Positions 162 through 21,346 of a DNA stretch of 64,000 nucleotides are shown here, piece by piece (the first letter of the stretch is position 1; each line of letters starts with the position of its first letter). The notes under the pieces were generated by a model, which saw only the letters and a list, made by a program, of their open reading frames with translations, did not search any database and was not told the origin of the DNA. Source of the stretch: Zoogloea sp. 1C4 (GTDB lineage: Bacteria > Pseudomonadota > Gammaproteobacteria > Burkholderiales > Rhodocyclaceae). Both the position numbers and the translations under genes were made by a program. The stretch lies in assembly GCF_009469605.1 (NCBI RefSeq), contig NZ_SSXU01000003.1:1-64000 (forward strand). Direction: 5' to 3'.

Positions 162-168
162 GAACCGC

Positions 169-200: not shown

Positions 201-238
201 AAATTCGCCTCGAACACAAAATTACTGACACTCCCGAC

Positions 239-490: not shown

Positions 491-509
491 TCGGGCAAAC
501 GCCGGGCGG

Positions 510-1322: not shown

Positions 1323-1460
1323 GCGTGCTCTCCAGGCAGAAGGTGAAAGGGCGGACGATGCAAAATCCGCCCGCCATTATCCGCCCGTCGCGAAACTCCC
1401 GCCCGCCGCCGCGCTCGAACCCCTGTAGCACACCCCATCGTCGTTCGAGGAGCCCGCGCC

Positions 1461-4400
1461 ATGAACGCCCCGCCCGACCGCCGCGCCGCCGACCACCGTG
1501 CCGCCATCTCCGCCCACTGCCGCAGCGACGAAGCGGCCCGGGTTGCCGCCCTCGCCGCCGAACTCGCCGCCGTGCCCCTCGACAGGGCCGCCGTCGCCGA
1601 GCACGCCCGGGCGCTGGTGGTGGCGGTGCGCCAGCAGCGCGAAGGGGCCAGCGGGGTGGACAACCTGATGCACGAGTTCTCGCTCTCGACCCAGGAAGGC
1701 ATCACCCTGATGTGCCTGGCCGAGGCCCTGCTGCGCATCCCCGACACGGCCACCCGCGACCGCCTGATCCGCGACAAGATCGCCAAGGGCGACTGGCGCG
1801 CCCGCCTGGGCCACAGCCACTCCCTGTTCGTCAATGCCGCCACCTGGGGGCTGATGCTCACCGGCCGGCTGGTGGCCACCCACAACGAGCACACCCTCGG
1901 CGGCAGCCTCGCCACGCTCATCGCCCGGGGCGGCGAGCCGCTGATCCGGCGGGGGGTGGAATTTGCGATGGGCCTGCTGGGCCAGCAGTTCGTGATGGGC
2001 GAGACCATCGCCACCGCCCTCAAGCGCAGCGAAGAGAAGATCCGTCAGGGCTACACCCACTCCTTCGACATGCTCGGCGAGGCCGCCGCCACCCGCGCCG
2101 ATGCCGAGGCTTACACCAACGCCTACGAGCGCGCCATCCACGCCATCGGCAAGGCCAGCGCCGGGCGCGGGGTGATCGCCGGGCCGGGCATTTCCATCAA
2201 GCTCTCGGCGCTCCACCCCCGCTACTGTCGCGCCCAGCGCCAGCGGGTGATGGACGAGCTCTACCCGCGCCTCGTGGCGCTAATGCAGCTCGCCTGCGGC
2301 TACAACATCGGGGTGAATATCGACGCCGAGGAGGCCGACCGGCTCGAACTCTCCCTCGATCTCGTCGAACGCCTGCTCGCCGAGCCGGATCTGGCCGGCT
2401 GGACGGGCCTCGGGGTGGTCGTCCAGGCCTACCAGAAGCGCTGCCCCTTCGTGATCGAGCATCTGGCCGACCGGGCGCGCGAGCACGGCCGGCGCATCAT
2501 GATCCGGCTGGTCAAGGGCGCCTACTGGGATAGCGAGATCAAGCGCGCCCAGGTGGACGGCCTGGCCGGCTACCCGGTATTCACCCGCAAGGTGCACACC
2601 GATCTTTCTTACCTGGCCTGTGCCGCCCGCCTGCTGGCGGTGGCCGACCGGATCTACCCCCAGTTCGCCACCCACAACGCCCACACCCTCGCCAGCGTCA
2701 CCCGCATGGCCGCCGACCGGGGCGTGGCCGAGTACGAATTCCAGTGCCTGCACGGCATGGGCGAGCCCCTCTACGACAACGTGGTCGCCCCGGGCCAGCC
2801 CGGCGGGCGCTGCCGCATCTACGCCCCGGTGGGCAACCACGCCAGCCTGCTGCCCTATCTGGTGCGGCGCCTGCTGGAAAACGGCGCCAACACCTCCTTC
2901 GTCAATCGCATCGTGGACGACGCCGTGCCGGTGGACGCCCTGCTCACCGATCCCCTCGACGCGGTGCGCCGCGACGGTGGCCGCCCCCACCCGGCCATTC
3001 CCCTGCCGCGGGATCTCTTCGGGCCCACCCGGCGCAACTCCGCCGGGCTCGATCTCGCCAGCGACGCCGAGATCAACCGGCTCGACGCCGAACTCGCCCT
3101 CCTCGCCCCGCGCCCCTGGCACGCCGAGCCGCTCCTCGCCAGCCACCCGCCCTCCGGCACGCCCTACCTGCCCGTGACCAACCCCGCCAACCGGCAAGAC
3201 CACGTGGGCACCGTACTCGAAGCCACCCTCACCGACGTGGCCCGTGCGGTGGAGGCCGCCGACACCTTCGCCGACGACTGGCACGCTGTGCCGCCAACCC
3301 GCCGGGCCACCGCGCTGCGCGCCGCCGCCGACGCCTTCGAGGCCCACCGCGCCGAGTTCATCAGCCTGTGCATCCGCGAAGCCGGCAAGACCCGCGCCAA
3401 CGCCATCGCCGAGGTGCGCGAGGCGGTGGATTTCTGCCGCTACTACGCCACCCAGATCGAACACCTGCCCCCCAGCGCCACCGCGCCCGGGCCGGTGGTA
3501 TGCATCAGCCCGTGGAACTTCCCGCTGGCGATCTTCGCCGGCGAGGTGGTGGCCGCGCTGGCCGCCGGCAGCCCGGTGCTCGCCAAGCCCGCCGAGCAGA
3601 CGCCCCTCACCGCCGCGCTGGCGGTGCATCTGCTCCACGCCGCCGGCGTCCCCCGGGCGGCCCTGCAGCTGCTGCCCGGCCGGGGCGAACGGGTGGGCGC
3701 CGCGCTGGTGGCCGATCCGCGCATCCGCGGCGTGATCTTCACCGGCTCGACCGAAGTTGCCGGGCTCATCCACCGTCAGCTCGCCCAGCGCCCGCCTGAG
3801 GCCCGGACCCCTCGCCTGATCGCCGAAACCGGCGGCCAGAACGCGATGATCGTGGACGCCTCGGCGCTACCCGAGCAGGTAGTGCAGGACGCCCTCGCCT
3901 CCGCCTTCGACAGCGCCGGCCAGCGCTGCTCGGCCCTGCGCGTGCTGTGCCTGCAGGAAGAGATCGCCGACCGGGTGATCGAGCTCCTCGCCGGGGCGAT
4001 GATGGAGCTCTCCATCGGCAACCCGGCGCGGCTGTCCACCGACGTGGGCCCGGTGATCGACGACACCGCCCGCGCGACGCTCCTCGCCCACATCGACCGG
4101 CTGCGCACCATCGGCCACCGGGTGATCCAGTGCCCGCTGCCCGACCCCTGCGCCACCGGCAGCTTCGTGCCGCCCACGCTCATCGAGATCGAGAGCATCG
4201 CCGAACTGGAAAGGGAGGTCTTCGGCCCCGTGCTGCATGTGCTGCGCTACCACGCCGGCCGGCTCGACGAACTCATCGACACCATCAACGCCACCGGCTA
4301 CGGCCTCACCTTCGGCATGCACAGCCGCATCGACGAGCGCATCGATACCGCCACCCGCCGCATCCGCGCCGGCAACCTCTACATCAACCGCAACCTGATC

Positions 4401-5108
4401 GGCGCCGTGGTGGGCGTGCAGCCCTTTGGCGGCGAAGGCAGATCCGGCACCGGGCCGAAGGCCGGCGGGCCGTTCTACCTGCCGCGGCTGATGGGCGACC
4501 TGTCGGTGCCGCCGGCCGCCCTCGGGCTCATGCCGGACGACAGCGGCGTCGACGACTGCCGCCTCGCCCGCTTCGACACGCTGCGCGCCTGGGCCCACCA
4601 CGAGGGTCTGCGCAGCCTGGCCGAAGCCTGTGCCGATTTCGCCACCACCTCGCCGCTGGCCTGCCGGGCAACGCTCCCCGGCCCCACCGGCGAACGCAAC
4701 ACCCTGGGGTTTGCGCCCCGCGGCACGATCCTGTGCGTGGCCGACGACCGGGACACCCTGCTCGTCCAGCTTGCCGCCGCGCTGGCCACCGGCAACACGC
4801 CGGCAGTGGTGCACGGCGCCGTGGCCGCCGCCGCCCTCGACGCCCTCCCGGACGGGCTGGCCGCAGCCGTCGTGCAGATCGACGAGGACGCGATCCTCAC
4901 CGTGGATGGCGTACTCCATGCCGGCAGCCCCGAGCGCCGCGCCGACCTGCACCGCCGGCTGGCCGACCACCCGGCACGCATCCTGCCGCTGGTCGAAGCG
5001 GGGCCCGACGGGCGCTACCCGCTGTACCGGCTGGTGGTGGAAAGGGCCGTGTCGATCAACACCGCCGCTGCCGGCGGCAACACGAGCCTGATGACCCTCG
5101 CCGTCTGA
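1461..5108 (+). CDS. putA: Bifunctional proline dehydrogenase / L-glutamate-gamma-semialdehyde dehydrogenase PutA (type B)
   Basis: Oxidises proline to glutamate in two steps: FAD-dependent proline dehydrogenase, then NAD-dependent P5C dehydrogenase, with channelling of the intermediate. The 1215-residue protein has the PRODH barrel with RLVKGAYWDSEIKRAQ near residues 347-362, then the aldehyde dehydrogenase module with E789 (AETGGQN) and catalytic C823 (GQRCSAL), and an extra C-terminal ALDH-like domain to the end. There is no ribbon-helix-helix DNA-binding domain at the N-terminus, so it should not be the autorepressor seen in enterobacteria. The start is the ATG preceded by CGAGGAGC. The gene stands alone; a strong hairpin terminator follows. 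Confidence 0.96.
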   Translation: MNAPPDRRAADHRAAISAHCRSDEAARVAALAAELAAVPLDRAAVAEHARALVVAVRQQREGASGVDNLMHEFSLSTQEGITLMCLAEALLRIPDTATRDRLIRDKIAKGDWRARLGHSHSLFVNAATWGLMLTGRLVATHNEHTLGGSLATLIARGGEPLIRRGVEFAMGLLGQQFVMGETIATALKRSEEKIRQGYTHSFDMLGEAAATRADAEAYTNAYERAIHAIGKASAGRGVIAGPGISIKLSALHPRYCRAQRQRVMDELYPRLVALMQLACGYNIGVNIDAEEADRLELSLDLVERLLAEPDLAGWTGLGVVVQAYQKRCPFVIEHLADRAREHGRRIMIRLVKGAYWDSEIKRAQVDGLAGYPVFTRKVHTDLSYLACAARLLAVADRIYPQFATHNAHTLASVTRMAADRGVAEYEFQCLHGMGEPLYDNVVAPGQPGGRCRIYAPVGNHASLLPYLVRRLLENGANTSFVNRIVDDAVPVDALLTDPLDAVRRDGGRPHPAIPLPRDLFGPTRRNSAGLDLASDAEINRLDAELALLAPRPWHAEPLLASHPPSGTPYLPVTNPANRQDHVGTVLEATLTDVARAVEAADTFADDWHAVPPTRRATALRAAADAFEAHRAEFISLCIREAGKTRANAIAEVREAVDFCRYYATQIEHLPPSATAPGPVVCISPWNFPLAIFAGEVVAALAAGSPVLAKPAEQTPLTAALAVHLLHAAGVPRAALQLLPGRGERVGAALVADPRIRGVIFTGSTEVAGLIHRQLAQRPPEARTPRLIAETGGQNAMIVDASALPEQVVQDALASAFDSAGQRCSALRVLCLQEEIADRVIELLAGAMMELSIGNPARLSTDVGPVIDDTARATLLAHIDRLRTIGHRVIQCPLPDPCATGSFVPPTLIEIESIAELEREVFGPVLHVLRYHAGRLDELIDTINATGYGLTFGMHSRIDERIDTATRRIRAGNLYINRNLIGAVVGVQPFGGEGRSGTGPKAGGPFYLPRLMGDLSVPPAALGLMPDDSGVDDCRLARFDTLRAWAHHEGLRSLAEACADFATTSPLACRATLPGPTGERNTLGFAPRGTILCVADDRDTLLVQLAAALATGNTPAVVHGAVAAAALDALPDGLAAAVVQIDEDAILTVDGVLHAGSPERRADLHRRLADHPARILPLVEAGPDGRYPLYRLVVERAVSINTAAAGGNTSLMTLAV

Positions 5109-5143
5109 ACACCCCTGTCGCCGCCCTGCCTGACGCCAACAGT

Positions 5144-5182
5144 CAAAAAAAACGGCACGGACGCTTTCGCATCCGTGCCGTT
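5144..5182. terminator. Bidirectional rho-independent terminator between putA and the PQQ dehydrogenase
   Basis: An 11-bp perfect stem AACGGCACGGA / TCCGTGCCGTT flanks a 10-base loop. On the minus strand the stem is followed by an eight-T run (complement of 5145-5152), a very strong signal for the dehydrogenase transcript. On the plus strand the stem is followed by a weaker TTTCC. Confidence 0.9.
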
Positions 5183-5231
5183 TCCGCAACCAGGCGGCCC
5201 GATGTTCCGGGCCACCTACTCCCAATCGGGA

Positions 5232-6998
5232 TTACTTGCCGTTGTGCAGCTTGAACACCCACACGGAACCACCCTGTTCCAGGAAGTTCACGCGACGGGC
5301 CACATCGCCGCCCCACAGGGGAACCGCACCGCCCCAGCCGGACACCACGGCCACGTACTGCTCGCCGTTTTCCATCCAGGTGACCGGGGGAGCCACCACG
5401 CCGGAGCCGGTCTGGAAGGACCAGACTTCCTTGCCGGTCTTGGCGTCCAGCGCCTTCAGGTAGCCTTCGGGGGTACCGTAGAAGGTCAGGTTGCCGGCGG
5501 TGGTCAGCACGCCGCCCCACAGGGGAGCGAAGTTCTTGTTTTCCCAGACGATCTTGCCCGAGACCGGATCGACCGCGCGCAGCGCGCCGATGTAGTCGTC
5601 GTGCAGGGCCTTGATGGTGAAGCCCGCACCCAGGTAGGCGGCGCCGCGCTTGTACGAGACCGGCTCGTTCCAGATGTCCATCGCCCACTCGTTGGCCGGC
5701 ACGTAGAACAGGCCGGTCTGCGGGTTGTAGGCGATCTGCTGCTGGTTCTTGCCGCCCAGGAAGGACGGAGCAGCCGTAACGCTCTTGCCCTTCTTGCCAT
5801 CGGCGCTGCCGGACGGATCGCCCGGGCGGTTCTCGTCCACGTAGATCGGACGGCCGGTGTTCATGTCGAAGCCCTTGGCCCAGGTGATGTCCTTGACGAA
5901 GGGGAAGATGTTGAGCGGCTTGCCGTTGGTACGGTCGAGCACGAAGAAGAAGCCGTTACGGTCAGCCTTGCCACCCGCCTTGATGATCTTGCCGGTCTTC
6001 GGGTCCTTGTAGTCGAAGGAGACGAATTCGTTCACACCGTCGAAGTCCCAGCCGTCGTGCGGGGTGGTCTGGTAGTGCCAGACGATCTTGCCGGTATCCG
6101 GGTCGATGGCCACGGTGGCGGAGGAGAACAGGTTGTCGCCGGGGCGCAGGTGGCTGTTCCACGGAGCCGGGTTGCCGGTGCCGGCGAAGACCAGGTTGGT
6201 GTCGGGATCGTAGGTGGCGCCGTTCCAGGTGGCCGCGCCGCCGGTCTTCCACAGGTCGCCGGTCCAGGTGGCGTTGAGGGTGCCGGAGATGCCGTTCTCG
6301 ACCTTCTCGCCATTCACCCACTTGTAGCCCATGTGGCCTTCAACGGTCGGACGCATCCAGACCATCTTGCCGGTCTTGGCATCGCGGGCTTCCATGCGGC
6401 CCTGCACGCCGAACTCGCCACCGGACACGCCGGTGATGACCAGGCCCTTGACGATCAGCGGAGCCGCCGTGGCAGAGTAGCCGGCAGCGTAGTCGTCGAT
6501 CTTGTCCTTCCAGACAACCTTGCCGGTGTCCTTGTTCAGGGCCACGAGCTGGGCGTCGAGGGTGGCGAAGATCACCAGGTTGTCGTAAAGCGCGGCGCCG
6601 CGGTTGATCACGTCACAGCACGGCATGATGCCTTCGGGCAGACGGTGCTCGTACTTCCACAGCTTCTTGCCGGTCTTGGCGTCGAGGGCGAAGATGCGGC
6701 TGTAGGAGGCCGTCACGAACATCTTGCCGTCGTGCACCAGCGGCTGGGATTCCTGGCCGCGCTGCTTCTCGCCGCCAAAGGAGAACGACCAGACCGGAAC
6801 CAGGTTCTTGACGGTCTTGGTGTTGATCTTGTCCAGCGTGCTGAAACGCTGACCCTGCTGGCCAAGGCCGAAATGAACGACGTCGCCGGTGGTCTTCGCA
6901 TCGTTGAGGATGTCGGCGTCGGTGACTTCCTTCGCCTGGGCGGCGCCAGCAACCATCAGCGCTGCAGCGATGATCGACATCGCAAACGGCTTTTTCAT
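5232..6998 (-). CDS. PQQ-dependent alcohol dehydrogenase (quinoprotein), lanthanide-type active-site signature
   Basis: A periplasmic 588-residue eight-bladed propeller dehydrogenase that oxidises primary alcohols and passes electrons to a c-type cytochrome. The start is the ATG at 6996-6998, preceded at 8 bases by AAAGGAGC and followed by a clear signal peptide ([18 protein letters not shown]...AQA). Vicinal cysteines C127-C128 (MPCCD) form the family's disulfide ring against PQQ. The catalytic aspartate is D318 in [13 protein letters not shown]320, two residues on, is the acidic residue that marks lanthanide-using enzymes (XoxF, ExaF, PedH), whereas calcium enzymes have A, S or T there. Propeller repeats of the type LDAKTGK recur. 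No heme c domain or cytochrome partner is present nearby. Driven by the sigma-54 promoter at 7105-7119. Confidence 0.93.
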
Positions 6999-7104
6999 AT
7001 TTTTGCTCCTTTGGATCATTGAATGTCTCCTTCGAGAAGGTGCTGAAGCACACGACGGACGGGCCACCTCCCGGCCACGCCCGAGTACGCAGCACGGTCA
7101 ATCC

Positions 7105-7119
7105 GCAAAAGCCGTGCCA
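7105..7119 (-). promoter_or_regulatory. Sigma-54 promoter of the PQQ dehydrogenase gene
   Basis: On the minus strand the sequence reads TGGCACGGCTTTTGC, a perfect match to the -24/-12 consensus TGGCACG-N4-TTGC with GG and GC ten bases apart. Transcription should start near 7093, giving a leader of about 95 bases before the ATG at 6998. A sigma-54 activator is therefore required; none is encoded in this locus. Confidence 0.85.
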
Positions 7120-7150
7120 TCAACGCGGCCGCATCACGGAAATCTGCATT

Positions 7151-7190
7151 TCGGGAAAATTTCCCGATATAAAAAGGGCTGTTGGCAACA
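7151..7190. promoter_or_regulatory. Two palindromes between the divergent sigma-54 promoters, candidate activator sites
   Basis: TCGGGAAAATTTCCCGA (7151-7167) is a 17-base inverted repeat and TGTTGGCAACA (7180-7190) an 11-base one. They sit in the only AT-rich stretch of the 469-base intergenic region, upstream of both promoters, where enhancer-binding proteins of the AcoR/NtrC type would bind. A further half-site-like GCAACAG lies near 7279. No gene is visible in 6999-7468. Confidence 0.5.
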
Positions 7191-7392
7191 ACGAAACTTT
7201 TAATGATCTGCACCAGCCCCGGCCTGATGGGCAATTCGCCCGATACAGCTGCTTCATTCCTCACCAAGTGCTCCAAACTGCAACAGCCCGGCGCGGAACA
7301 CGTTACGCCGGCACACGGCCACCGGGCAGCGGAAGCCCCCGCCCGGCATCCCCCACCGCCGTTTGAGGCCCTCCGGCCCGCGCCACAACCTC

Positions 7393-7408
7393 AGGCACGA
7401 AGCTTGCA
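7393..7408 (+). promoter_or_regulatory. Sigma-54 promoter of the SoxYZ-like/metallohydrolase operon
   Basis: AGGCACGAAGCTTGCA matches the sigma-54 consensus in the GG and GC dinucleotides, the spacing and all other conserved bases except the first T. The expected start site is near 7419, about 50 bases before the first gene of the operon. It faces away from the dehydrogenase promoter at 7105-7119. Confidence 0.8.
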
Positions 7409-7468
7409 GCCGTTCATCTCATCATAGAGCGCGCCGCCCACGAGCAGGCCGCCACGAGGAGACCAAGC

Positions 7469-8248
7469 TTGAAACTACTGCACGCCCTTGCGGCCGGGGC
7501 ATTCGCCGCCGTCTGCACCCTGGCCCATCCCGCCAGCCCGGCCCCCCAGGCCGACCCCCTGGAATCGCCCCGCTGGGGCGACATGCGCAGGGAATTCTTC
7601 CCGGCCAAGGCCCGCGTCCGCTTCGACAGCCGGGTCAAGGTCACCGCACCGCTCACCGCCGAGAACGCCCTCAACGTGCCCGTGAGCGTCGACGCCGGCG
7701 AGTTGTCCGACGTGCGTGAGGTCGTCGTCTTCGCCGACTTCAACCCCATTGTAAAAATAGTACGTTTCGAGCCCACCGGCGCCCATCCCGCGCTCGGCTT
7801 CCGGATCAAGCTCCAGCAATCGTCCCCCGTCCGCGCTGCGGTGCGCACCGGCGACGGCAGCTGGCACGTGGGCGGCACCTGGGTGAACACCGCCGGTGGC
7901 GGCTGTACCCTGCCCTCCGCCGGCAGCGCCTCGCCCGAATGGCAGAAGCGCCTCGGCGAGGTGAGCAGCCGGGTGTGGGCCAGGAAGGAAGGCGGCGAGC
8001 GCATCCGCCTGCGGGTGATCCACCCGGAAGACACCGGCCTCGCCGCCGGCGTGCCGGCCTTCTTCATCCAGGACCTGCGCCTCACCGATGAAGCCGGCCA
8101 GCCCCTGATGCACATCGAGGGTTTCGAACCCCTGTCCGAAAATCCGGTCTTCACCGTAGACATCCCCGCCGCCCGCGCCGCCGCCGGCTACCGGGTGAGC
8201 GGCCGCGACAACAACGGCAACACCATCTCGGCAGCGATCGAAAAATGA
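7469..8248 (+). CDS. Quinoprotein dehydrogenase-associated SoxYZ-like carrier protein
   Basis: A 259-residue exported protein with signal peptide (residues 1-26). It looks like a fusion of a SoxY-like domain (about 35-150) and a SoxZ-like Ig-fold domain (about 160-259). At the junction is TAGGGCTLPS with C146, the counterpart of the swinging-arm GGCGG cysteine of SoxY that carries sulfur intermediates in thiosulfate oxidation. Such fused proteins are a known family found beside PQQ dehydrogenases; their cargo is not established. The start is the first codon of the upstream hydrophobic leader, written TTG, with GAGGAG a few bases upstream. The stop overlaps the next start (ATGA). Confidence 0.85.
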   Translation: MKLLHALAAGAFAAVCTLAHPASPAPQADPLESPRWGDMRREFFPAKARVRFDSRVKVTAPLTAENALNVPVSVDAGELSDVREVVVFADFNPIVKIVRFEPTGAHPALGFRIKLQQSSPVRAAVRTGDGSWHVGGTWVNTAGGGCTLPSAGSASPEWQKRLGEVSSRVWARKEGGERIRLRVIHPEDTGLAAGVPAFFIQDLRLTDEAGQPLMHIEGFEPLSENPVFTVDIPAARAAAGYRVSGRDNNGNTISAAIEK

Positions 8249-9195
8249 AGCGCGTCGCCCGAACCCTCACCGCCATCTTCACCCTCGGCTGGGCCCTGCT
8301 GCTCGCCGCGGCCGACATGGACTACGGCCTCGCCCCCGAGCAGATCGCCCCCGACACCTGGGTGCTCACCGGCCGCAGCGAAGACTTCAGCACCCAGAAC
8401 GGCGGCAACATCGTCAACACCGCCTTCGTCGTCACCTCGGCCGGCGTGCTGGTGATCGACAGCGGCCCCAGCCGGGCCTATGGCGAGCAGCTGCGCCGGG
8501 CCATCGCCCGGGTCACCGACAAGCCGGTGGTGATGGTGGTGGACACACACCACCACCCGGATCACTTCCTCGGCAACCAGGCTTTCCCTAAGGAAACCCT
8601 GGCCGCGCTGCCCGGTACGATCCACGGCATTCACACCGAAGGCGGCAACCTCAACGAGAACATGTACCGCCTCACCGGCGACTGGATGGCCGGCACCGAG
8701 CCCGTCGCCCCGGCCCGCCAGCTCGCCGCCGGCCCGCTGCAGCTGGGCGACCACCGGTTCGAGCTGCTCGCCCTCGATGGCCACACCGAGGCCGATCTCG
8801 CCATCCTCGACCGCCAGACCGGCGTGCTGTTTGCCGGCGATCTGGTCTTCAACAACCGCGCACCCACCACGCCCCACGCCCGCCTCGACGCCTGGAACGC
8901 CGCCCTCGCCAAACTCGAAGCCCTGCCCTTCACCCGCCTCGTGCCCGGCCACGGCCCGGTGAGTACCGACGGCGCCCCGATCCGCCAGACCCGCGCCTGG
9001 CTAGCGTGGCTCGATGAGACCCTGCGCCAGTCTGCCGAAGAAGGCCTCGACATGACCGAGGTGCTGGCCCTGCCGCTGCCCGCCGGGTTCCGCCGACTGG
9101 CCGTCTCCGAGGCCGAATACCGCCGCTCGGTCGGCCAGCTCTACCCCGCTTATGAGCAGCGCGCCCTCGCCCGGGACGGAAAGGCTGCCCGATGA
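8245..9195 (+). CDS. Quinoprotein relay system zinc metallohydrolase (metallo-beta-lactamase fold, SoxH-related)
   Basis: A 316-residue exported metallo-beta-lactamase-fold hydrolase with an N-terminal signal sequence. The zinc motif H102-x-H104-x-D106-H107 lies in DTHHHPDHFLGNQ; later ligands are probably in GHTEAD, FAGDLVF and VPGHGP. The family is related to SoxH and is repeatedly found next to the SoxYZ-like carrier and PQQ dehydrogenases, so it probably releases whatever is bound to the carrier cysteine; that is inference. It overlaps its upstream gene by 4 bases and the following tonB by 4, so translation is coupled along the operon. Confidence 0.85.
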   Translation: MKRVARTLTAIFTLGWALLLAAADMDYGLAPEQIAPDTWVLTGRSEDFSTQNGGNIVNTAFVVTSAGVLVIDSGPSRAYGEQLRRAIARVTDKPVVMVVDTHHHPDHFLGNQAFPKETLAALPGTIHGIHTEGGNLNENMYRLTGDWMAGTEPVAPARQLAAGPLQLGDHRFELLALDGHTEADLAILDRQTGVLFAGDLVFNNRAPTTPHARLDAWNAALAKLEALPFTRLVPGHGPVSTDGAPIRQTRAWLAWLDETLRQSAEEGLDMTEVLALPLPAGFRRLAVSEAEYRRSVGQLYPAYEQRALARDGKAAR

Positions 9196-10001
9196 ACGCC
9201 GCACCCACCTTCGCCATGCCCTGGCCCGAGGTGCCCGCGCCGCGGATCAGCCGCCCCCTCAAGCTGGCCATCGCCGCCTCCATCGGCGTACATGTGCTGG
9301 CGCTCGCCTGGCAGCACGATCTCCTGCCCAAGGCAGACGACACCCCGCCCACCCTGAACGTGGTGCTCCGTGCCCCGGCCCCGGTCGTCCAGCCGGCCCC
9401 GGCGCCCGAACCCGTCGCCCGCGTCGAGTCCGTCGAGCCCCCGGCCCCGCGGATCACCCGCCCGGCCAAGGTGGATCCCATCTCCGCCCCCCGTGCGGCA
9501 CCGGTGATCACCCGCGCGGCCGCGCCCGACGTTCCGGCGATCCGCACCGAAACCCCGCGGCCCGCGCCGGTCGCCACCCCGGCACCAGCCCCTGTGGTCG
9601 CCGAAGCGGCCCCGGCCCGCCCCGCCGCATCGACCGTCGCTCACGCCGAGCCGGCTGCCCCCATCCACGCCGCCCCGGCCGCCGACGAGCCCGTAGACCC
9701 GGCCCTCCTCGAACGCTACGGCCGCAACCTGTCCAGCCTGTTCGCCCGCCAGCAGAACTACCCGCGCATCGCCGCCATGCGCGGCTGGGAGGGCGAGGTG
9801 CAGGTGCGCATCACCATCGCCCGCAAGGGCACCATCGTGTCCACCCAGGTGGTCCGCTCCAGCGGCTTCGACGTGCTCGACCAGAACGCCGTCCAGCTGG
9901 TCACCGCTGCCGGCCCGCTTCCCCGCCCGCCCGAGAACCTGCAGAACCGCGAGTTCCAGGTGATCGTCCCGGTGCACTACAAGCTGGAGAAATCATCGTG
10001 A
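9192..10001 (+). CDS. TonB-family energy transducer
   Basis: A 269-residue protein with a short cytoplasmic N-terminus and one membrane helix (about 24-40) bearing the SxxxH motif (S30, H34) conserved in TonB for coupling to ExbB/ExbD. A long Pro/Ala/Val-rich periplasmic spacer (about 50-170) precedes a TonB C-terminal domain (about 180-265) with YPRIAAMRGWEGEVQVRI. It spans the periplasm to energise outer-membrane receptors. No receptor, exbB or exbD is in the window, so its client is unknown. A metal or lanthanide uptake role is attractive given the operon but is inference. It overlaps the genes on both sides by 4 bases. Confidence 0.88.
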   Translation: MNAAPTFAMPWPEVPAPRISRPLKLAIAASIGVHVLALAWQHDLLPKADDTPPTLNVVLRAPAPVVQPAPAPEPVARVESVEPPAPRITRPAKVDPISAPRAAPVITRAAAPDVPAIRTETPRPAPVATPAPAPVVAEAAPARPAASTVAHAEPAAPIHAAPAADEPVDPALLERYGRNLSSLFARQQNYPRIAAMRGWEGEVQVRITIARKGTIVSTQVVRSSGFDVLDQNAVQLVTAAGPLPRPPENLQNREFQVIVPVHYKLEKSS

Positions 10002-11455
10002 GCAACGCCACCACCACGGCCGTGCCCGACGACACCGGCTGGCAGTCGCGCAGTGGCCCCCGCCCCATGTCCCTGCGCCTGCGCCTGAGCCTGGTGCTCA
10101 CCGCCCTGGCGGCCGCCCTGGTGCTGGCTGGCGCGGCCATGTGGGTGCGCGACGCGCGCATCGCCATCGCCGAGGAAGTCACCGCCGCCAACCGGGTGGC
10201 CGCCCAGTGGCTGGGCGCCGCCGCCCGGGGCGCCGCCGAAGGCGACCCGGCCTGGAGCGAGGAGCGCCTCATCGCCCACCTCACCGCCGTCGGCCGCATC
10301 CGCGCCCACCACCTCGAAGCCCGCGACCCGGTGGGCAGCGTGGTGTACCGCTCGCCGCCCTCCGCCTACAAGGCCGGCCACGACGCCCCCGCGTGGTTTG
10401 CCGATTGGCTCGGCCCGGACATGCCGGCCCTGCAGCTTCCCGCCGGCCGGCTCACCCTGTCGCTCCAGCCCGACGCCTCCCGGGCGCTGGTGGATCTGTG
10501 GGACGACCTCTCCGCCGCCGCCGGCCGTGCCCTGCTGGCGCTGGCCGGGCTCTTCGCCGGCTGCTGGCTGGCCCTTGACCGGGCCCTGCGCCCCCTCGAC
10601 AACGTGATGGCTGCCCTCGGTCGCGCCGGGCAGGGGCGTTTCGACACCCGCCTGCCCGAAACCGGCCCCGCCGAGCTCGCCCGCCTCGCCCAGGCCTTCA
10701 ACGGCATGGCCGGCCAGCTCGACCACGCGGTCTCCGAGAACGTCCGCCTCACCCAGCAGCAGGCGGTAGCCCGCGCCATCACCGAACGCCTGGAAGCCGA
10801 CCGCCGCGCCATCGCCCGCGAGCTCCACGACGAGTTGGGCCAGAGCATCACCGCCGTCGCCGCCCTGGCCGGCGCCATCGTCCAGCGCTGCACCGACAAC
10901 CCCGCCGTGAGCAAGAGCGCCGAAGTGATCCGCGACGTGGCCTCGCGGATGCACGACGACGTGCGCGCCCTGCTCACCCGCCTGCGCCCGCCCACCGCCG
11001 GCAGCAACGAGGAAACCCTGGCCGACGCCGTGGGCAGCTACCTCGCCGCATGGCAGAGCCGCCACCCGGACATCGAGCTGTCGTCCGAGCTCTTCGCCGG
11101 CCCCTATCCGCTGCCCGACGACATCACCCTCACCGCCCTCCGGGTGGTGCAGGAGTCGTGCACCAACATCGTCCGCCACGCCCAGGCCCGCCGCGTCCGG
11201 GTGCGCCTGCTGCGTGAGGAATCCGGCCTGGTGGTCGAGGTGTCTGACGACGGCCGCGGCATCGAGCCCGCCACGGGTCAGGCCGGCTTCGGCCTCACCG
11301 GCATGCGCGAGCGGGTCGCCGCGGTGGACGGCCAGCTCGACATCGCCAGCCCCCACGGCGGCGGCACCCGCATCCGCGCCCGCCTGCCCCTGCCCCCGGT
11401 GGCCGCTGCCGCCGACGCCACGACCCGACTCGCCCCGGAGCCCGCCCTGTCATGA
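9998..11455 (+). CDS. Sensor histidine kinase, MoxY-like (NarL-type family)
   Basis: 485 residues from a GTG start that overlaps the tonB stop (GTGA); an ATG 23 codons later is the alternative. A membrane helix (about 28-49) and a second one (about 170-192) enclose a periplasmic domain resembling the LapD/MoxY N-terminal domain. A HAMP linker and a HisKA_3 helix follow, with phospho-acceptor H277 in RELHDELGQS, then a HATPase with DDGRGI and GFGLTGMRERV. MoxY kinases control methanol/formaldehyde-responsive genes in Paracoccus, so this kinase probably senses an alcohol-oxidation signal in the periplasm. The partner regulator follows with an ATGA overlap. Confidence 0.9.
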   Translation: MSNATTTAVPDDTGWQSRSGPRPMSLRLRLSLVLTALAAALVLAGAAMWVRDARIAIAEEVTAANRVAAQWLGAAARGAAEGDPAWSEERLIAHLTAVGRIRAHHLEARDPVGSVVYRSPPSAYKAGHDAPAWFADWLGPDMPALQLPAGRLTLSLQPDASRALVDLWDDLSAAAGRALLALAGLFAGCWLALDRALRPLDNVMAALGRAGQGRFDTRLPETGPAELARLAQAFNGMAGQLDHAVSENVRLTQQQAVARAITERLEADRRAIARELHDELGQSITAVAALAGAIVQRCTDNPAVSKSAEVIRDVASRMHDDVRALLTRLRPPTAGSNEETLADAVGSYLAAWQSRHPDIELSSELFAGPYPLPDDITLTALRVVQESCTNIVRHAQARRVRVRLLREESGLVVEVSDDGRGIEPATGQAGFGLTGMRERVAAVDGQLDIASPHGGGTRIRARLPLPPVAAAADATTRLAPEPALS

Positions 11456-12087
11456 AACTCGATCACCTGACCCTCGTGCTCGCCGACGACCACGCCATCG
11501 TGCGGATGGGCTTCCGACTGCTCCTCGAAGGCGTCGGCGCCCGGGTGCTGGCTGAGGCCGACAGCGGCGAAGCCGCCCAGCGCCTGTTCGCCGAGCACAC
11601 CCCGGACGTGCTGGTGATGGACCTGTCGATGCCCGGCTGCGGCGGCCTGTCGGCGCTGGAGCGCATCCTCGCCCGCGAGCCCGCCGCCCGGGTGCTGATC
11701 GCCTCGGCCCACGCCGACGCCCTCACCGCCGAACGCACCCTCAAGGCCGGCGCCGCCGGCTACCTGTGCAAGCGCAGCGCACCCGACGAGCTCCTCCGCG
11801 CGGTGTGCCTGGTGGCCGCCGGCCAGACCTACATCGACCCGGAGATCGCCGCCGTGCTGCGCCGCGCCGACCGCCCGGAGCACCCGGCCGAAGCTCTCAC
11901 CGACAAGGAATTCCACGTCTTCCTGCAGCTTGCCCAGGGCCACTCGGTGGCAGAGGTGGCCGACACCTTCCACCTCAGCCCCAACACCGTCGGCACCCAC
12001 CTTTACCGCATCAAGCAGAAGCTCGGCATCCAGAACATGGCCGAACTGGCGATGGCCGCCGTCCGCGCCGGGCTGATCGAGGTCTGA
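11452..12087 (+). CDS. LuxR/NarL-family response regulator, MoxX-like
   Basis: 211 residues. The receiver domain has the acidic pair D12/D13, phosphorylation site D57 (VLVMDLSMP) and K109 region (YLCKRSAP). The C-terminal helix-turn-helix is of the LuxR type (LTDKEFHVFLQLAQG, then SPNTVGTHLYRIKQKLG). The start overlaps the kinase stop by 4 bases, so the pair is translationally coupled and almost certainly cognate. Because it is NarL-type, it is not itself the sigma-54 activator demanded by the two promoters upstream. Confidence 0.93.
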   Translation: MKLDHLTLVLADDHAIVRMGFRLLLEGVGARVLAEADSGEAAQRLFAEHTPDVLVMDLSMPGCGGLSALERILAREPAARVLIASAHADALTAERTLKAGAAGYLCKRSAPDELLRAVCLVAAGQTYIDPEIAAVLRRADRPEHPAEALTDKEFHVFLQLAQGHSVAEVADTFHLSPNTVGTHLYRIKQKLGIQNMAELAMAAVRAGLIEV

Positions 12088-12118
12088 CCACGCAGCACCC
12101 CCACCCCCCGGAGACAAC

Positions 12119-12616
12119 ATGAAAAACAAGGCATCCCTCTTCGTCGCCATCCTCGCCCTCAGCGCCGCCCTGCCGGCTGCCGCGGGCAACACGCTCAAGG
12201 TCCAGGAGCATATGGACATCGCCGTTCCGCCCGCCAAGGTCTGGGACACCGTGCGTGACTTCGGCAGCCTCGCCTGGCACCCGGCCGTCGCCACCACCAC
12301 CCTCGACAAGGGCGAAAAGGACAAGCGCGGCGCCGTGCGCACCGTCACCACCAAGGACGGCGCCAAGCTGGTCGAAGAGCTGCTCAACCATCGCGATTCC
12401 GAGCGGATGCTCAAGTACCGCATCATCGACTCGCCGCTGCCGGTGAGCGGCTACGTGTCCACTCTCAAGGTCAAGTCGGCCAAGGGCGGCAGCCGCGTCG
12501 AATGGTCGTCCACCTTCAAGGCCAAGGGCGCAGACACCGCCACCGCCAAGAACGCCGTGCGCGGCATCTACACCAGCGGCCTCGACGCCCTCAAGCAGCA
12601 GCTCGAAGCCAAGTAA
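12119..12616 (+). CDS. SRPBCC-family protein, MxaD-like, exported
   Basis: A 165-residue protein with a cleavable signal peptide (residues 1-22, ending PAAAG). The rest is a START/SRPBCC ligand-binding fold with the characteristic VPPAKVWDTVRDFGSLAWHP opening. MxaD proteins of methylotrophs are periplasmic SRPBCC proteins that influence electron transfer from methanol dehydrogenase to cytochrome c, which fits the neighbours. The ATG is preceded by CCGGAGACAAC. The ligand is unknown. Confidence 0.82.
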   Translation: MKNKASLFVAILALSAALPAAAGNTLKVQEHMDIAVPPAKVWDTVRDFGSLAWHPAVATTTLDKGEKDKRGAVRTVTTKDGAKLVEELLNHRDSERMLKYRIIDSPLPVSGYVSTLKVKSAKGGSRVEWSSTFKAKGADTATAKNAVRGIYTSGLDALKQQLEAK

Positions 12617-12631
12617 GCAGCGCCCGCGCCG

Positions 12632-14746
12632 ATGGTCTCCGCCCGAAGTCTCCTGCACCGGGCCGCCATCGGCGCCCTCCAGTGTCTCGTCCTCCTCTCC
12701 CTGGCCTGCCTGGGCCTGCCCACGCGGGCGGGCGATCTCTCCCAGGCCGACATGGCCCGGCGCGTCCAACCGCCCCTCCATGTGGGCGACAAGCTCCGGG
12801 ACATCCCCGCCTGGCCCATCACCAGCGAACTGGAGCCCGAAGCCGGCCCGGTCGCCTACGCCTTTGAATCCATCGACCTCGCGCCCATTCCGGGCTTCGA
12901 GGGCACGCCCCTCAACCTGCTGGTCACCATCGACCGGCGCGGCAACTTCCTGGGCGTCGAACTGCTGCGCCAGCACGAGCCGGTCTTCCTCTCGGGCCTC
13001 GGCGAAGAACCGCTGAAGGACTTCCTGCGCCAGTACGAAGGCAAGAGCCTCAAGCAGGAGATCACCGTCTCCAGCCTCTACGGCAACACCCGCGCCGGCG
13101 CGGGCGGCAACCGGGTGGTGCTGGACGGGGTGAGCAAGGCCACCGCCTCGGTGCGCATCGTCAATCAGAGCGTGCTCACCTCGGCCCTGGCGGTAGCCCG
13201 CGCCCGGCTGGGCTTTGCCGCCCCGGCCAACAAGGCGCAACCCGCCGAGGTGCGGCCGGACGTCTTCGAGCAACGCAGCTTCGCTCAGCTGGTGGAGGGC
13301 GGCGCCATCGGGCGGCTGCACCTGACCAACGGCGACGTGGAGCAGCGCTTCGCCGGCAGCGAAGGGGCTGGCGTCGACGCGGACGCCCTGGCCCGGCCCG
13401 ACGCCACCTTCGTCGACCTCTACGTGGCCTACCTCAACGCGCCCACCATCGGCCGGGCGATCCTCGGCGACGCCGGCCACGCCGACCTGATGCGCCGTCT
13501 CGAGCCCGGCCAGCACGCCTGGTGGGTGGCCACCGGCGGCCGCGACGCCTTTGTCGACGACGCCTTCACCCGCGGCACCGTGCCGCCGCGCCTCGCTTTC
13601 AGCCAGGACGGCGGTCCGGTGGAGCTGCGCGACCTGGACATCGCCCCCGCCCCTCCCGCCGGCGCCCCGCCCCTCAACGCCGCGCTGGTGCTGCGGGTGC
13701 CGCCCATGTCGGGCGTCGACCCGGCCAGCCCGGTGCGCTTCGAGCTGACCCTGACCCGCGCCAAGGGCTCGATGCTGCCGATCATCACCCAGCGCAGCGC
13801 CGTCCTGGATTACCAGCCGCCGGCCGGGCTGTTCCATCGTCCGCCCGCCCCGCTGCCCGACTGGCTGATCGCCTGGAAGGATCGCGCCACCGAGCTCGCG
13901 GTGATCGGCGCGGCGCTGCTCGTCCTGTCGGTGGTGCTCGCCCGGCCGCGCTGGATGTCGGTGTCGGCATCGCGCCTGCGGGTGTTCCGGCTGGGCTTTC
14001 TGGCCTTCACCCTCGGCTATCTGGGCTGGTACGCCCAGGGGCAGCTGTCGATCGTGCAGATCACCGGCGCGGTCAAGTCGCTGGCCGCCGGTGCCGGGCT
14101 CAAGAGCTTCCTGTACGACCCGGTGAGCCTGCTCCTCATCGCCTTCACGCTGGTGAGCTTCGTGGTGTGGGGCCGGGGCACCTTCTGCGGCTGGCTGTGC
14201 CCCTTTGGCGCGCTGCAGGAGTTCGCCGCCCACCTCGCCCGCCTGCTGCGCCTGCCCGAGCACCGGCTTCCGCCGCGGCTGGGCGATGCGCTCGAGAAGA
14301 GCCGCTACGCCGTGCTCGCCGCCCTGGTGGCCGCCGCGGCCTTTGCCCCGCAGCTGGCCGAGAAAGGCGTCGAGATCGAACCCTTCAAGACCGCCATCAC
14401 CGTGGGTTTCGACCGGAGCTGGCCCTTCGTGGCCTGGGCGGTGCTGCTGCTGGTGCTGGGCGGCGTGTATTACAAGTTCTTCTGCCGCTACCTGTGCCCG
14501 CTGGGGGCGGCGATGACCCTCGGCGGCAAGCTGCGCATCCTCGACTGGTTGCCCCGCCGCACCGAATGCGGCCAGCCCTGCCAGACCTGCCGCCACCGCT
14601 GCACCTATGACGCCATCGAGAAATCCGGCGCCATCCGCTACGACCGCTGCTTCCAGTGCCTCGACTGCGTGGGCATCTACCACGACGAAAACCGCTGCGC
14701 GCCGATCATGCTGTACCGCAAGCGCGCCGCCGCGACGCGACGCTGA
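12632..14746 (+). CDS. NosR/NirI-like membrane flavoprotein with iron-sulfur domains
   Basis: 704 residues with NosR-family architecture. There is a signal sequence, a periplasmic FMN-binding domain (about 80-200) with D165...T171 in DGVSKATAS, resembling the Dxx(S/T)GAT motif for covalent FMN, and a second periplasmic region to about 405. Several membrane helices (about 418-640) follow, with the cysteine motifs CGWLCPFG (C519, C523) and CRYLCPLG (C618, C622). The C-terminal cytoplasmic cysteine-rich domain (CGQPCQTCRHRC and CFQCLDC) should bind iron-sulfur clusters. It probably moves electrons across the membrane between the quinol pool or cytoplasm and the periplasm. No nos genes are nearby, so nitrous oxide reduction is not implied. 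Last gene of the operon. Confidence 0.88.
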   Translation: MVSARSLLHRAAIGALQCLVLLSLACLGLPTRAGDLSQADMARRVQPPLHVGDKLRDIPAWPITSELEPEAGPVAYAFESIDLAPIPGFEGTPLNLLVTIDRRGNFLGVELLRQHEPVFLSGLGEEPLKDFLRQYEGKSLKQEITVSSLYGNTRAGAGGNRVVLDGVSKATASVRIVNQSVLTSALAVARARLGFAAPANKAQPAEVRPDVFEQRSFAQLVEGGAIGRLHLTNGDVEQRFAGSEGAGVDADALARPDATFVDLYVAYLNAPTIGRAILGDAGHADLMRRLEPGQHAWWVATGGRDAFVDDAFTRGTVPPRLAFSQDGGPVELRDLDIAPAPPAGAPPLNAALVLRVPPMSGVDPASPVRFELTLTRAKGSMLPIITQRSAVLDYQPPAGLFHRPPAPLPDWLIAWKDRATELAVIGAALLVLSVVLARPRWMSVSASRLRVFRLGFLAFTLGYLGWYAQGQLSIVQITGAVKSLAAGAGLKSFLYDPVSLLLIAFTLVSFVVWGRGTFCGWLCPFGALQEFAAHLARLLRLPEHRLPPRLGDALEKSRYAVLAALVAAAAFAPQLAEKGVEIEPFKTAITVGFDRSWPFVAWAVLLLVLGGVYYKFFCRYLCPLGAAMTLGGKLRILDWLPRRTECGQPCQTCRHRCTYDAIEKSGAIRYDRCFQCLDCVGIYHDENRCAPIMLYRKRAAATRR

Positions 14747-14848
14747 AGCCCTCGCCCTGTGCGACCAGCGGATGCGTCGCGCTAGGCGCTCGCGTCGAAA
14801 GCCCGTACATTAGCCACCGCTGATTTACATCGAACCGCCCTGCGTCCA

Positions 14849-15796
14849 ATGCCCTTCGCCCTGCTCCTCGTCACGTTGGGAGCGCTCGCCGTCTTCCTGT
14901 TCCCGATGCTGATCCGCCGCGGGCTCGCCGCACCCCGGCTGCGGGAATCGGGACAGCCGACGGATCTGCCATGGCAGACCATCCGGATTCCAACCGTGCG
15001 GGGCAGGACGCTCCACGCCTGGTACATGCCCCCTCGCGGCGCCACGCCCGCGTCAGCGGTCGCCGTACTGCACGGCTGGGGCGGCAACGCGGAGACCATG
15101 CTGCCGCTCGCCGCCCCACTGCATCTGGCCGGGCATGGCGTGCTGCTCTTCGACGCGCGCTGTCACGGCAGCAGCGACGACGACGATTTCGCCTCCCTGC
15201 CGCGCTTTGCCGAAGACCTGGAGCACGCCCTCGACTGGCTGGCCCGGCAACCGGAGGTGGACGCCCGGCGCCTGGCCGCCATCGGTCACTCGGTCGGCGC
15301 GGCGGCAGCCCTGCTCGTCGCGGCACGCCGCCCCGCGCTTTCGGCCATCGTGAGCCTCGCGGCATTTGCCCACCCGGCGCGGATGATGGAGCGCTGGCTC
15401 GACAGCAAGGGCATTCCCCGCTGGCCCTTCGGGCAACTGATCCTGTGGTACGTGCAGCGCACGATCGGCCATCGCTTCGACGACATCGCCCCCTGCCACA
15501 CCATCCGGCAGATACGCTGTCCGGTGCTGATCGCCCACGGCAGCGACGACGCAACGGTGCCGGTGGCCGAAGCCCGCGAGATTCACGCCAACCGTGCCCA
15601 CGACGGCGTCGAGCTGCGCATCCTGACGGGCGGTCACGACGACTGTCAGGATCTCGACCGGGTACTGGCCGATGTCGTCCGCTTCCTCGACAGCAGCCTT
15701 GGCCCCGAAAGCACCAAAGAAAACGCCCCGCAGACAGGCGGGGCGTTTCTTGCAGAACCGTCCGGCAGAGCGCTCAAGCGCCCTGCCGCAAACTGA
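14849..15796 (+). CDS. Alpha/beta hydrolase, membrane-anchored
   Basis: 315 residues. A single N-terminal hydrophobic helix (3-22) precedes an alpha/beta hydrolase fold: oxyanion-hole region LHGWGGNAE (75-83), nucleophile elbow GHSVGA with S148, acid in HGSDDATVP and histidine in TGGHDD. Substrate unknown; a peptidase S9/esterase-type lipase is likely. About 100 bases separate it from the NosR-like gene, so it may be independent. The last 25 codons run straight through a terminator hairpin (15721-15748), which suggests the ancestral protein ended earlier. The start lacks a convincing ribosome-binding site. Confidence 0.8.
   Translation: MPFALLLVTLGALAVFLFPMLIRRGLAAPRLRESGQPTDLPWQTIRIPTVRGRTLHAWYMPPRGATPASAVAVLHGWGGNAETMLPLAAPLHLAGHGVLLFDARCHGSSDDDDFASLPRFAEDLEHALDWLARQPEVDARRLAAIGHSVGAAAALLVAARRPALSAIVSLAAFAHPARMMERWLDSKGIPRWPFGQLILWYVQRTIGHRFDDIAPCHTIRQIRCPVLIAHGSDDATVPVAEAREIHANRAHDGVELRILTGGHDDCQDLDRVLADVVRFLDSSLGPESTKENAPQTGGAFLAEPSGRALKRPAAN
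15721..15752. terminator. Bidirectional terminator inside the 3' end of the hydrolase gene
   Basis: An 11-bp perfect stem AAACGCCCCGC (15721-15731) / GCGGGGCGTTT (15738-15748) with a 6-base loop. T-rich tails exist on both strands (TTTCTTG on plus, TTTTCTTT on minus), so it serves both the hydrolase and the convergent MaoC gene even though the hydrolase frame continues to 15796. Confidence 0.85.
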
Positions 15797-15799
15797 TGC

Positions 15800-16246
15800 T
15801 CAGCGGGCCGGCACCATGATGTCGGCTTCGCCTTCGACCACGGGCTTGCCGCGGACGGTGCAGATGGTGTCGAACTTGACCTTGCGCTTCTCGGGCACGA
15901 GTTCCTTGATGGTGCAGCGGGTCACGACGGTGTCGCCGATCTTCACCGGGGCCTTGAACTTCAGGGTCTGGGCCAGGTAGATCGCGCCAGGGCCGGGCAG
16001 CTTGGTGCCGAGCACGGTGGAGATGAAGCCGGCCGACAGCATGCCGTGGGCGATGCGGCCACCGAACATGGTGGAGGCAGCCAGTTCTTCGTTGATGTGC
16101 ACCGGGTTGTAGTCACCGGAGACGCCGGCAAACATCAGGATGTCGGCTTCGGTCACGGTGCGGGCATAGACGGCGCTCTGGCCGACGGACAGTTCCTCGA
16201 ACTTGTAGCCGTAGAACTCTTCGAAATTGTTGTTCTGTTCGCTCAT
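15800..16246 (-). CDS. MaoC-like (R)-specific enoyl-CoA hydratase, PhaJ type
   Basis: 148 residues from an ATG preceded by AAGGGAACAGCA. It is a single hot-dog domain with the hydratase-2 motif in FAGVSGDYNPVHINEE, where the aspartate and histidine are catalytic, followed by GGRIAHGML. It hydrates trans-2-enoyl-CoA to (R)-3-hydroxyacyl-CoA, a feed from beta-oxidation into polyhydroxyalkanoate in many Rhodocyclales. No pha genes are adjacent. An upstream in-frame ATG exists, but its N-terminus does not fit the family. Convergent with the hydrolase gene. Confidence 0.88.
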   Translation of the reverse strand: MSEQNNNFEEFYGYKFEELSVGQSAVYARTVTEADILMFAGVSGDYNPVHINEELAASTMFGGRIAHGMLSAGFISTVLGTKLPGPGAIYLAQTLKFKAPVKIGDTVVTRCTIKELVPEKRKVKFDTICTVRGKPVVEGEADIMVPAR

Positions 16247-16369
16247 TGCTGTTCCCTTATGCATGTTGGTGGTCTGAGACGCATCGCACTCCCGGGCCGG
16301 AACGCTGCCGGCATGAGGCGCCCCGGCAGCATACCGCAAAAAGCGCGACGTTTTTGACGCCGCGCGCGT

Positions 16370-16980
<611 letters not shown>

Positions 16981-16984
<4 letters not shown>

Positions 16985-18345: not shown

Positions 18346-18346
18346 C

Positions 18347-19030: not shown

Positions 19031-19041
19031 GCCGGCGCCCG

Positions 19042-19518: not shown

Positions 19519-19560
19519 CGGTCAGACAATCTCATCTAGCTCAGACTTATCGGTCGGACC

Positions 19561-19634: not shown

Positions 19635-19645
19635 GCATCACTTGC

Positions 19646-21346
<1,701 letters not shown>

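Follow-up and report, generated by a model that had tools for sequence, protein, structure and literature searches.

Lanthanide-dependent alcohol oxidation is widespread, and several of the accessory genes that accompany it are still unexplained. The ped cluster of Pseudomonas putida KT2440 is the closest described system: alongside the lanthanide-type alcohol dehydrogenase PedH, the cytochrome PedF and the two-component system PedS2/R2, it includes a SoxYZ-like protein (PP_2677) and a SoxH-like hydrolase (PP_2678). The main text of a review of the cluster describes both families, proposes for them roles in maturation, disulfide formation or protection of pyrroloquinoline quinone (PQQ), all unproven, and gives minimal transposon phenotypes in the absence of lanthanides (PMC12997753). 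The terms NosR, flavin and ferredoxin do not occur in the same main text, which records P. putida as having no LutH homologue (PMC12997753). Here, we describe a gene island in a 64,000-nucleotide stretch of Zoogloea DNA (G000:C75:1-64000, hereafter the window; host genome 5.0 Mb). The island shares with the ped cluster a predicted lanthanide-type alcohol dehydrogenase, the SoxYZ and hydrolase families and a two-component system, and it differs in adding divergent sigma-54 type sites, TonB with its receptor, and a NosR-like flavin/iron-sulfur (Fe-S) membrane protein, which we call NosRL.

NosRL itself resembles two described kinds of protein. NosR, which works with NosX/ApbE in nitrous oxide respiration, has the same architecture, Fe-S cysteines and flavin Thr. 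A flavinylated NapH-like protein is reported with exaA in 172 genomes, where it is proposed to take electrons from the alcohol oxidase, a task that cytochrome c performs in other microbes (PMC8238504, eLife 2021). The neighbourhood of a flavin/Fe-S membrane protein and an alcohol oxidase is therefore not new; what distinguishes the island from those clusters is that NosRL co-occurs with PedF and with lanthanide-type enzymes, and the main text of that paper has no match for ‘lanthan’ or ‘PQQ’ (PMC8238504). Lanthanide-class specificity, PedF co-presence, the Lys motif described below and the TonB-receptor link were not found in the literature searched, with subscription journals and supplements outside the search. 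Likewise, we found nothing on a Zoogloea PQQ-dependent alcohol dehydrogenase and nothing joining a PQQ alcohol dehydrogenase, an FMN (flavin mononucleotide) transferase and 4Fe-4S, and a query on lanthanide alcohol dehydrogenase and NapH gave no apt title among the matches listed. On NosR together with quinoproteins and lanthanides, the one match was a paper about N2O-respiring methanotrophs.

A conserved island around a PedH-type dehydrogenase

In the window, a PQQ alcohol dehydrogenase (PQQ-ADH) gene runs leftward and a seven-gene operon rightward from one intergenic region (Table 1). Gene calls and profile searches with NCBIfam and Pfam, by which families were assigned, recover the eight genes listed in an earlier reading of this DNA (hereafter the original prediction). 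The tight packing that it described is also there, with 4-base overlaps at SoxYZ/hydrolase, hydrolase/TonB, TonB/kinase and kinase/regulator and gaps of 31 bases before the SRPBCC gene and 15 bases before the NosRL gene. The island is real and conserved: the original prediction had staked itself on the genes recurring together across genomes, and they do. We mapped 36 loci and 80 NosRL loci with tblastn, the latter being the best 80 of 377 relatives found, in stretches of up to ~10 kb on each side with some contigs short; further loci were mapped by gene calling, which is less complete. The main order was PQQ-ADH / SoxYZ-hydrolase-TonB-(receptor)-kinase-regulator-(SRPBCC)-NosRL, and in a second order NosRL faced TonB, kinase and regulator. 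The PQQ-ADH was present at 41 of the 80 NosRL loci, TonB at 36, the hydrolase at 30, SoxYZ at 27, a PqqU-like receptor at 24, the TonB-dependent receptor of the main order at 17, the SRPBCC gene at 16 and ApbE, a flavin adenine dinucleotide:protein FMN transferase, at 6; a kinase was matched at 52 and a regulator at 58, counts that include unrelated two-component genes.

By sequence, the dehydrogenase belongs to the lanthanide class and to the PedH type, which supports the reading of the island as an alcohol-oxidation locus and adds a likely lanthanide link. An Asp two residues past the active-site Asp is an established lanthanide mark. In the numbering of the 611-residue frame, whose true start may be Met24, it is Asp343 in the stretch W340-D341-F-D343, and the protein thus has both sequence features of PedH/ExaF enzymes, Asp at +2 (D341/D343) and vicinal Cys150-Cys151. 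The best PDB sequences were 6zcv (873 bits) and 6zcw (860 bits), the latter of which we take to be PedH, and ExaA (1flg) reached 705 bits; the +2 residue is likewise Asp in 6zcv, 6zcw and XoxF, and Ser in ExaA. Asp occupied this position in 42/42 orthologue readings from fetched family loci (40 distinct genes, two of them fetched twice), and Ser in 15/18 readings of more distant PQQ-ADHs, including the host’s second enzyme.

Two separable helper modules

The original prediction had run a single relay chemistry through all the listed genes. This did not survive comparison across genomes, which splits the accessory genes into two independently inherited helper modules: the SoxYZ carrier with the SoxH-like hydrolase, and TonB, kinase, regulator and NosRL with a receptor encoded elsewhere in the host genome (homologue at G000:C53:48401-50902, adjoining TonB and ExbB genes). 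In a 121-genome family survey, the dehydrogenase was present in 43 genomes, NosRL in 29, the receptor in 40, fused SoxYZ in 38, the hydrolase in 37, PqqC in 30 and a PqqU-like receptor in 52. Within the 43 dehydrogenase-bearing genomes, SoxYZ and the hydrolase travel together (36 with both, 1 with SoxYZ alone, 0 with the hydrolase alone and 6 with neither; p 1e-6), and NosRL and SoxYZ vary independently (24/5/13/1 in the corresponding order; Fisher p 0.92), which rejects one relay needing SoxYZ for NosRL. A fused SoxYZ is missing from four genomes that carry NosRL, the receptor and the dehydrogenase (G216, G249, G261 and G300; 97, 99, 87 and 100% complete), and the same four gave no TIGR04558 hydrolase at E 1e-60, so NosRL cannot depend on a SoxYZ thio-adduct there; in G261, NosRL still adjoins TonB, kinase and regulator. 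G289, whose contig ends inside the dehydrogenase, is a fifth NosRL genome without fused SoxYZ.

NosRL genomes of the family have the dehydrogenase in 29/29 cases and the receptor in 29/29, and the NosRL-receptor counts in the 43 genomes are 29/0/8/6 (p 5e-4). A tree covering 39 of the 43 dehydrogenases requires 7 changes for NosRL, 4 for SoxYZ and 3 for the receptor, and all six receptor-less genomes share one nine-member clade. Because of that clade, the nesting of NosRL within receptor genomes is partly kinship, and we consider NosRL and the receptor as one obligate unit a weak reading. A few genomes do not follow this scheme: the only enzyme accompanying SoxYZ and hydrolase in G303 is of the Ser type, and G205, G220 and G259 have the receptor without a dehydrogenase orthologue. 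For the SoxYZ set (38), five genomes with internal stops, which are separate SoxY/SoxZ read through, were dropped and a partial in G215 was kept; the hydrolase set (37) was taken at E 1e-60 and includes two genomes under the curated cut-off (G256, partial, and G298). One partial in the PqqC set is under its cut-off (G283), the NosRL set was taken at an identity of at least 48% and includes a partial in G283, and G289 was added to the dehydrogenase set by hand as an 82% piece at a contig end.

NosRL is separate from NosR

The last gene of the operon had been described as a NosR-like flavin/iron-sulfur membrane protein, and it is indeed a NosR homologue; judged on profile score, tree and motif, it is a family separate from NosR. 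Its NF046105 score lies under the cut-off of 1000, it is 36% identical to the host’s own NosR (G000:C96:57485), NosR-type rows and NosRL rows lie on opposite sides of a 100/100 branch, and nosZ is absent among the locus genes; with the motif, these observations led us to reject NosRL as a true NosR. The trees are unrooted, and one origin or several are possible for NosRL. Its closest named relative among the matches listed is from Zoogloea sp. MAG.512 (96%). No PDB sequence matched at E 0.01, and a structure model (predicted local distance difference test (pLDDT) 73, predicted TM-score 0.47) was not used.

The ApbE flavinylation motif is given as D-x-x-[ST]-G-A-[ST] (PMC12052999). In NosRL, the Gly position is non-Gly in 46/46 rows (Lys 43, Arg 1, Met 1, Ser 1), and it is Gly in 26/26 NosR-type rows, both by hand count; the following Ala is Gly in two NosRL rows and the Asp is Glu in one. 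The window’s motif, DGVSKAT, keeps Asp and Thr and has Lys for Gly. The flavin Thr171 and the Fe-S cysteines are invariant in NosRL alignments (18 and 26 rows), and a group at 37–42% identity (G286, G231, G230) carries the Gly motif. This departure from the published consensus, together with the company that NosRL keeps with lanthanide-type enzymes in many bacteria, makes it a concrete protein to test.

Plasmid loci, 15 with NosRL and 5 with NosR hand-chosen among 158 matched records, set the two families in different company. ApbE lies directly downstream of NosRL in 14/15 annotated loci, and pedF, pqq genes or a PQQ-ADH are in view in 14/15 (pedF in 13/15); at the NosR control loci, nosZ adjoins NosR in 5/5 and pedF or a PQQ-ADH is listed in 0/5. 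NosRL, ApbE and the receptor are consecutive on an annotated Variovorax plasmid; a separate Variovorax paradoxus plasmid match was without annotation. In an ApbE tree, the NosRL-linked ApbEs did not form one clade apart from NosX.

On four Rhodobacterales plasmids (L209, L211, L218, L219), NosRL-ApbE is followed by a xanthine-dehydrogenase-family enzyme, possibly an aldehyde oxidase of the same pathway; a CoxG-type protein is annotated as well in L209, L211 and L218. Ferrovum-type genomes (L192, L194) have NosRL with ApbE, and L192 also has PedF and a PqqU-like receptor close by.

NosRL accompanies lanthanide-class enzymes beyond the family

In a 299-genome phylum sample (58 matched places, of which 29, among them the best 23, were read for the motif), NosRL occurred in 12 genomes, every one of which had a PQQ-ADH (12/12; 67/299 in the whole sample) and PedF (12/12; 26/299 in the whole sample), with Fisher p of 7e-9 and 1e-14, uncorrected for kinship. 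In one gammaproteobacterium, a binding protein (by eye) is followed by a PQQ-ADH and then by NosRL, and PedF lies immediately upstream; in other genomes, such as G411, NosRL is distant from the PQQ-ADH. Wherever the key residue was readable, NosRL was tied to loci of lanthanide-class enzymes: an Asp-type PQQ-ADH was present in 40/40 readable genome-contig loci (of 80 scanned), in 6/6 readable plasmid loci (of 16 NosRL loci scanned) and in the gammaproteobacterial locus, and two of the readable loci also hold a Ser-type enzyme.

Proposed role of NosRL and alternatives

Our best explanation of the whole, to which we give a probability of roughly 0.42, is a service island of a PedH-type, lanthanide-class PQQ-ADH in which NosRL sends electrons into the periplasm. 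Its parts are not equally firm: that the island serves such a dehydrogenase is highly probable, a role of NosRL as its redox partner is somewhat favoured, and the flow of NosRL electrons into the periplasm, argued by analogy, is tentative. The dehydrogenase would oxidise alcohols in the periplasm, and its electrons would mainly pass through cytochrome c550 PedF, encoded elsewhere (G000:C53:434352), to an oxidase. The TonB system would import a metal chelate or cofactor whose supply the kinase/regulator pair would report, and the carrier and hydrolase may handle a thiol- or sulfur-bound by-product. NosRL would be a second, membrane-spanning electron path beside the quinoprotein, in which electrons drawn from quinol or the cytoplasm would travel along Fe-S clusters and reach a covalent FMN on the periplasmic side; these electrons would keep the lanthanide quinoprotein in, or return it to, a competent redox state. 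We favour this direction over an outlet to quinone for two reasons: every genome of the phylum sample that has NosRL also has PedF, and in the relatives NosR and PceC electrons flow outward (PMC12052999, PMC7660919). A wider claim, that NosRLs are Proteobacteria-wide transmembrane flavin/Fe-S reductases dedicated to lanthanide-class PQQ-ADHs, flavinylated at a non-canonical D-G-x-x-K-A-T and providing quinol-powered reductive maintenance as an electron input, is in our view unlikely.

Several observations weigh against our explanation. A published proposal runs electrons the opposite way, from the alcohol oxidase to the respiratory chain (PMC8238504). NosRL is dispensable, in that it was not seen in 55/67 PQQ-ADH genomes and 14/26 PedF genomes of the phylum sample, and in 39/80 genome-contig loci no PQQ-ADH was found within ~10 kb of NosRL, several of these contigs being short. 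The Asp-type counts at NosRL loci stand without a base rate of Asp and Ser types outside the family, and the tie to the receptor is softened by the single clade of receptor-less genomes. Covalent FMN on NosRL is not certain because the motif is without the consensus Gly; no ApbE adjoins NosRL in the window, the host genome not having been searched for one, and on the Azoarcus KH32C plasmid the region viewed around NosRL shows no ApbE and no PQQ genes.

If the published direction applied here, NosRL would be an electron outlet from the dehydrogenase or PedF through FMN and Fe-S into the quinone pool, either in place of cytochrome c or in addition to it. This arrangement is in print for the NapH-like protein beside exaA, and the constant company of NosRL and a PQQ-ADH (29/29 family genomes, 12/12 phylum genomes) fits it; yet that proposal gives the NapH-like protein cytochrome c’s job (PMC8238504), and PedF is found in 12/12 NosRL genomes of the phylum sample. 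With pedF also in view in 13/15 NosRL plasmid loci, we regard an outlet as possible, although on balance it is doubtful. Lanthanides probably raise the potential of PQQ, and donation to the flavin would then be harder. NosRL could also be a periplasmic reductase of the metal or chelate delivered by the TonB-dependent receptor, similar to PepSY-type siderophore reductases. The receptor in 29/29 NosRL family genomes and the consecutive NosRL, ApbE and receptor genes on the annotated Variovorax plasmid would suit such a role, but the general chemistry of lanthanides, whose release should need no reduction, speaks against it. Although pairings of this kind have been proposed for PepSY systems (PMC8238504), a TonB-dependent receptor is listed in 0/12 alphaproteobacterial plasmid loci, all of which have NosRL-ApbE with ped, pqq or PQQ-ADH genes (their annotation is incomplete). 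As the nesting of NosRL and the receptor is in addition partly phylogenetic, we judge a metal reductase quite improbable.

The relay of the original prediction, in which the carrier’s arm cysteine C146 bears the aldehyde product as a thio-adduct, the hydrolase releases the acid, and NosRL and TonB handle electrons or metal, gains from the invariance of C146 (21/21), from the joint inheritance of SoxYZ and hydrolase (36 both, 6 neither) and from a hydrolase match to the glyoxalase II profile (TIGR03413, 35.8 bits, far under cut-off). We think it very improbable, since the four genomes noted above keep NosRL without fused SoxYZ, and the roles preferred in the review’s main text are maturation, disulfide formation or sulfur protection, with minimal transposon phenotypes in the absence of lanthanides (PMC12997753). 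A redox sensor feeding the neighbouring kinase/regulator pair would account for the kinase at 52/80 and the regulator at 58/80 NosRL loci, for their adjoining NosRL on the Azoarcus KH32C plasmid, and for an apparent kinase and regulator (by eye) two genes off in the gammaproteobacterial genome G588. However, a histidine kinase beside NosRL is listed in 0/12 alphaproteobacterial plasmid loci and the full Fe-S conduit is conserved in NosRL, so that a sensor seems to us highly improbable.

Carrier, hydrolase, TonB and regulators

The fused SoxYZ-like carrier with its arm cysteine, the zinc metallohydrolase and TonB all carry the profile matches expected of them (Table 1), and the first two are, as originally stated, known neighbours of PQQ dehydrogenases with as yet unproven roles (PMC12997753). 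The carrier has SoxY and SoxZ domains in one frame (PF13501 and PF08770), and the 21 aligned sequences in which C146 is invariant comprise the window's own and 20 from L119-L198, where 27 were found. In a structure model (pLDDT 87.1 overall, mean 62 in the C146 block), the Y half matches SoxY 2oxg (TMt 0.83) and C146 is placed in a low-confidence linker joining the Y and Z halves, so the arm would be tethered and not terminal. The carrier falls short of a true thiosulfate-oxidation SoxY (TIGR04488 59.7 bits against a cut-off of 125). The host also has an apparent separate true soxY-soxZ (G000:C53:196951-197562; 131.3 bits, with a stop between), and so the carrier and a true Sox system may stand side by side there. 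A more distant second hydrolase (~33% identity) lies between kinase and TonB in an alternative arrangement (L164, L165, L174, L178 and similar loci).

A TonB-dependent receptor accounts for TonB better than the original suggestion that TonB itself handles metal: such a receptor sits between TonB or the hydrolase and the kinase in 7/36 and 11/80 loci (some genomes are in both sets). It was not at the TonB-kinase position in the window or in G288 (L043). Compared by gene context alone, it resembles the lanthanide TonB-dependent receptors LutH/LanA in being genetically tied to a lanthanide-type alcohol dehydrogenase, and this syntenic receptor is a candidate for a step at the outer membrane of the kind that the ped review leaves open for P. 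putida (PMC12997753). The receptor had no PDB sequence match at E 1e-8, and a match on a methanotroph plasmid had no lanthanide-labelled gene in view. A second receptor type near a number of islands is PqqU-like, although its NF041535 score (793 bits) is under the cut-off of 1200; the receptor between TonB and kinase reaches only 118 bits. This PqqU-like receptor is present in 12/13 dehydrogenase-bearing genomes without PqqC but also in 27/30 with it, and genomes that do not make PQQ may supply the island by scavenging it. Since the Zoogloea host has PqqC, we discarded PQQ import as the chief function of TonB there.

The MoxY/MoxX-like pair stands as a kinase and a regulator, and the MoxY likeness does not (LapD_MoxY_N 14.4 bits, E 0.036, cut-off 25). 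For the candidate MxaD-like protein, the profiles give the generic SRPBCC family PF10604 and no NCBIfam family; the gene is mainly a Zoogloea feature.

Promoter sites and adjoining genes

Putative sigma-54 promoters facing both ways, as first proposed, recur in relatives. Among 33 divergent PQQ-ADH/SoxYZ intergenic regions of relatives, with near-copies removed, a site with at most 1 mismatch was found on the minus strand in 33/33 and on the plus strand in 30/33, where plain shuffles give 0.47/33 and 0.46/33. A sigma-54 activator gene is recurrent in the fetched loci (18 genomes by clustering), and none was among the genes called in window positions 1-20000.

Table 1 Features of the island in the window, with profile or motif support.
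Feature	Position	Strand	Support
PQQ alcohol dehydrogenase, PedH-type by sequence	5232..7067	-	TIGR03075 789.9 bits, cut-off 480
Putative sigma-54 type site TGGCAC-N5-TTGC before dehydrogenase, TGGCACGGCTTTTGC	7105..7119	-	0 mismatches
Putative sigma-54 type site before right-hand operon, AGGCACGAAGCTTGC	7393..7407	+	1 mismatch
Fused SoxYZ-like carrier, TTG start, arm GGGC146T at Y/Z junction	7469..8248	+	TIGR04557 212.7 bits, cut-off 140
Quinoprotein-associated zinc metallohydrolase (SoxH-like, type 1)	8245..9195	+	TIGR04558 442.7 bits, cut-off 300
TonB energy transducer	9192..10001	+	PF03544 65.9 bits
Membrane histidine kinase (HAMP/HisKA_3/HATPase), GTG start at 9998	9998..11455	+	Pfam
LuxR/NarL-type response regulator	11452..12087	+	NCBIfam, Pfam
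SRPBCC protein, probable secretion signal (by eye)	12119..12616	+	PF10604 116.1 bits
NosRL, NosR homologue: FMN-type domain (DGVSKAT motif), membrane helices, Fe-S cysteines	12632..14746	+	NF046105 540.7 bits

The island is adjoined at window positions 1461-5108 by a PutA proline/pyrroline-5-carboxylate dehydrogenase gene, which gives no sign of belonging to it.

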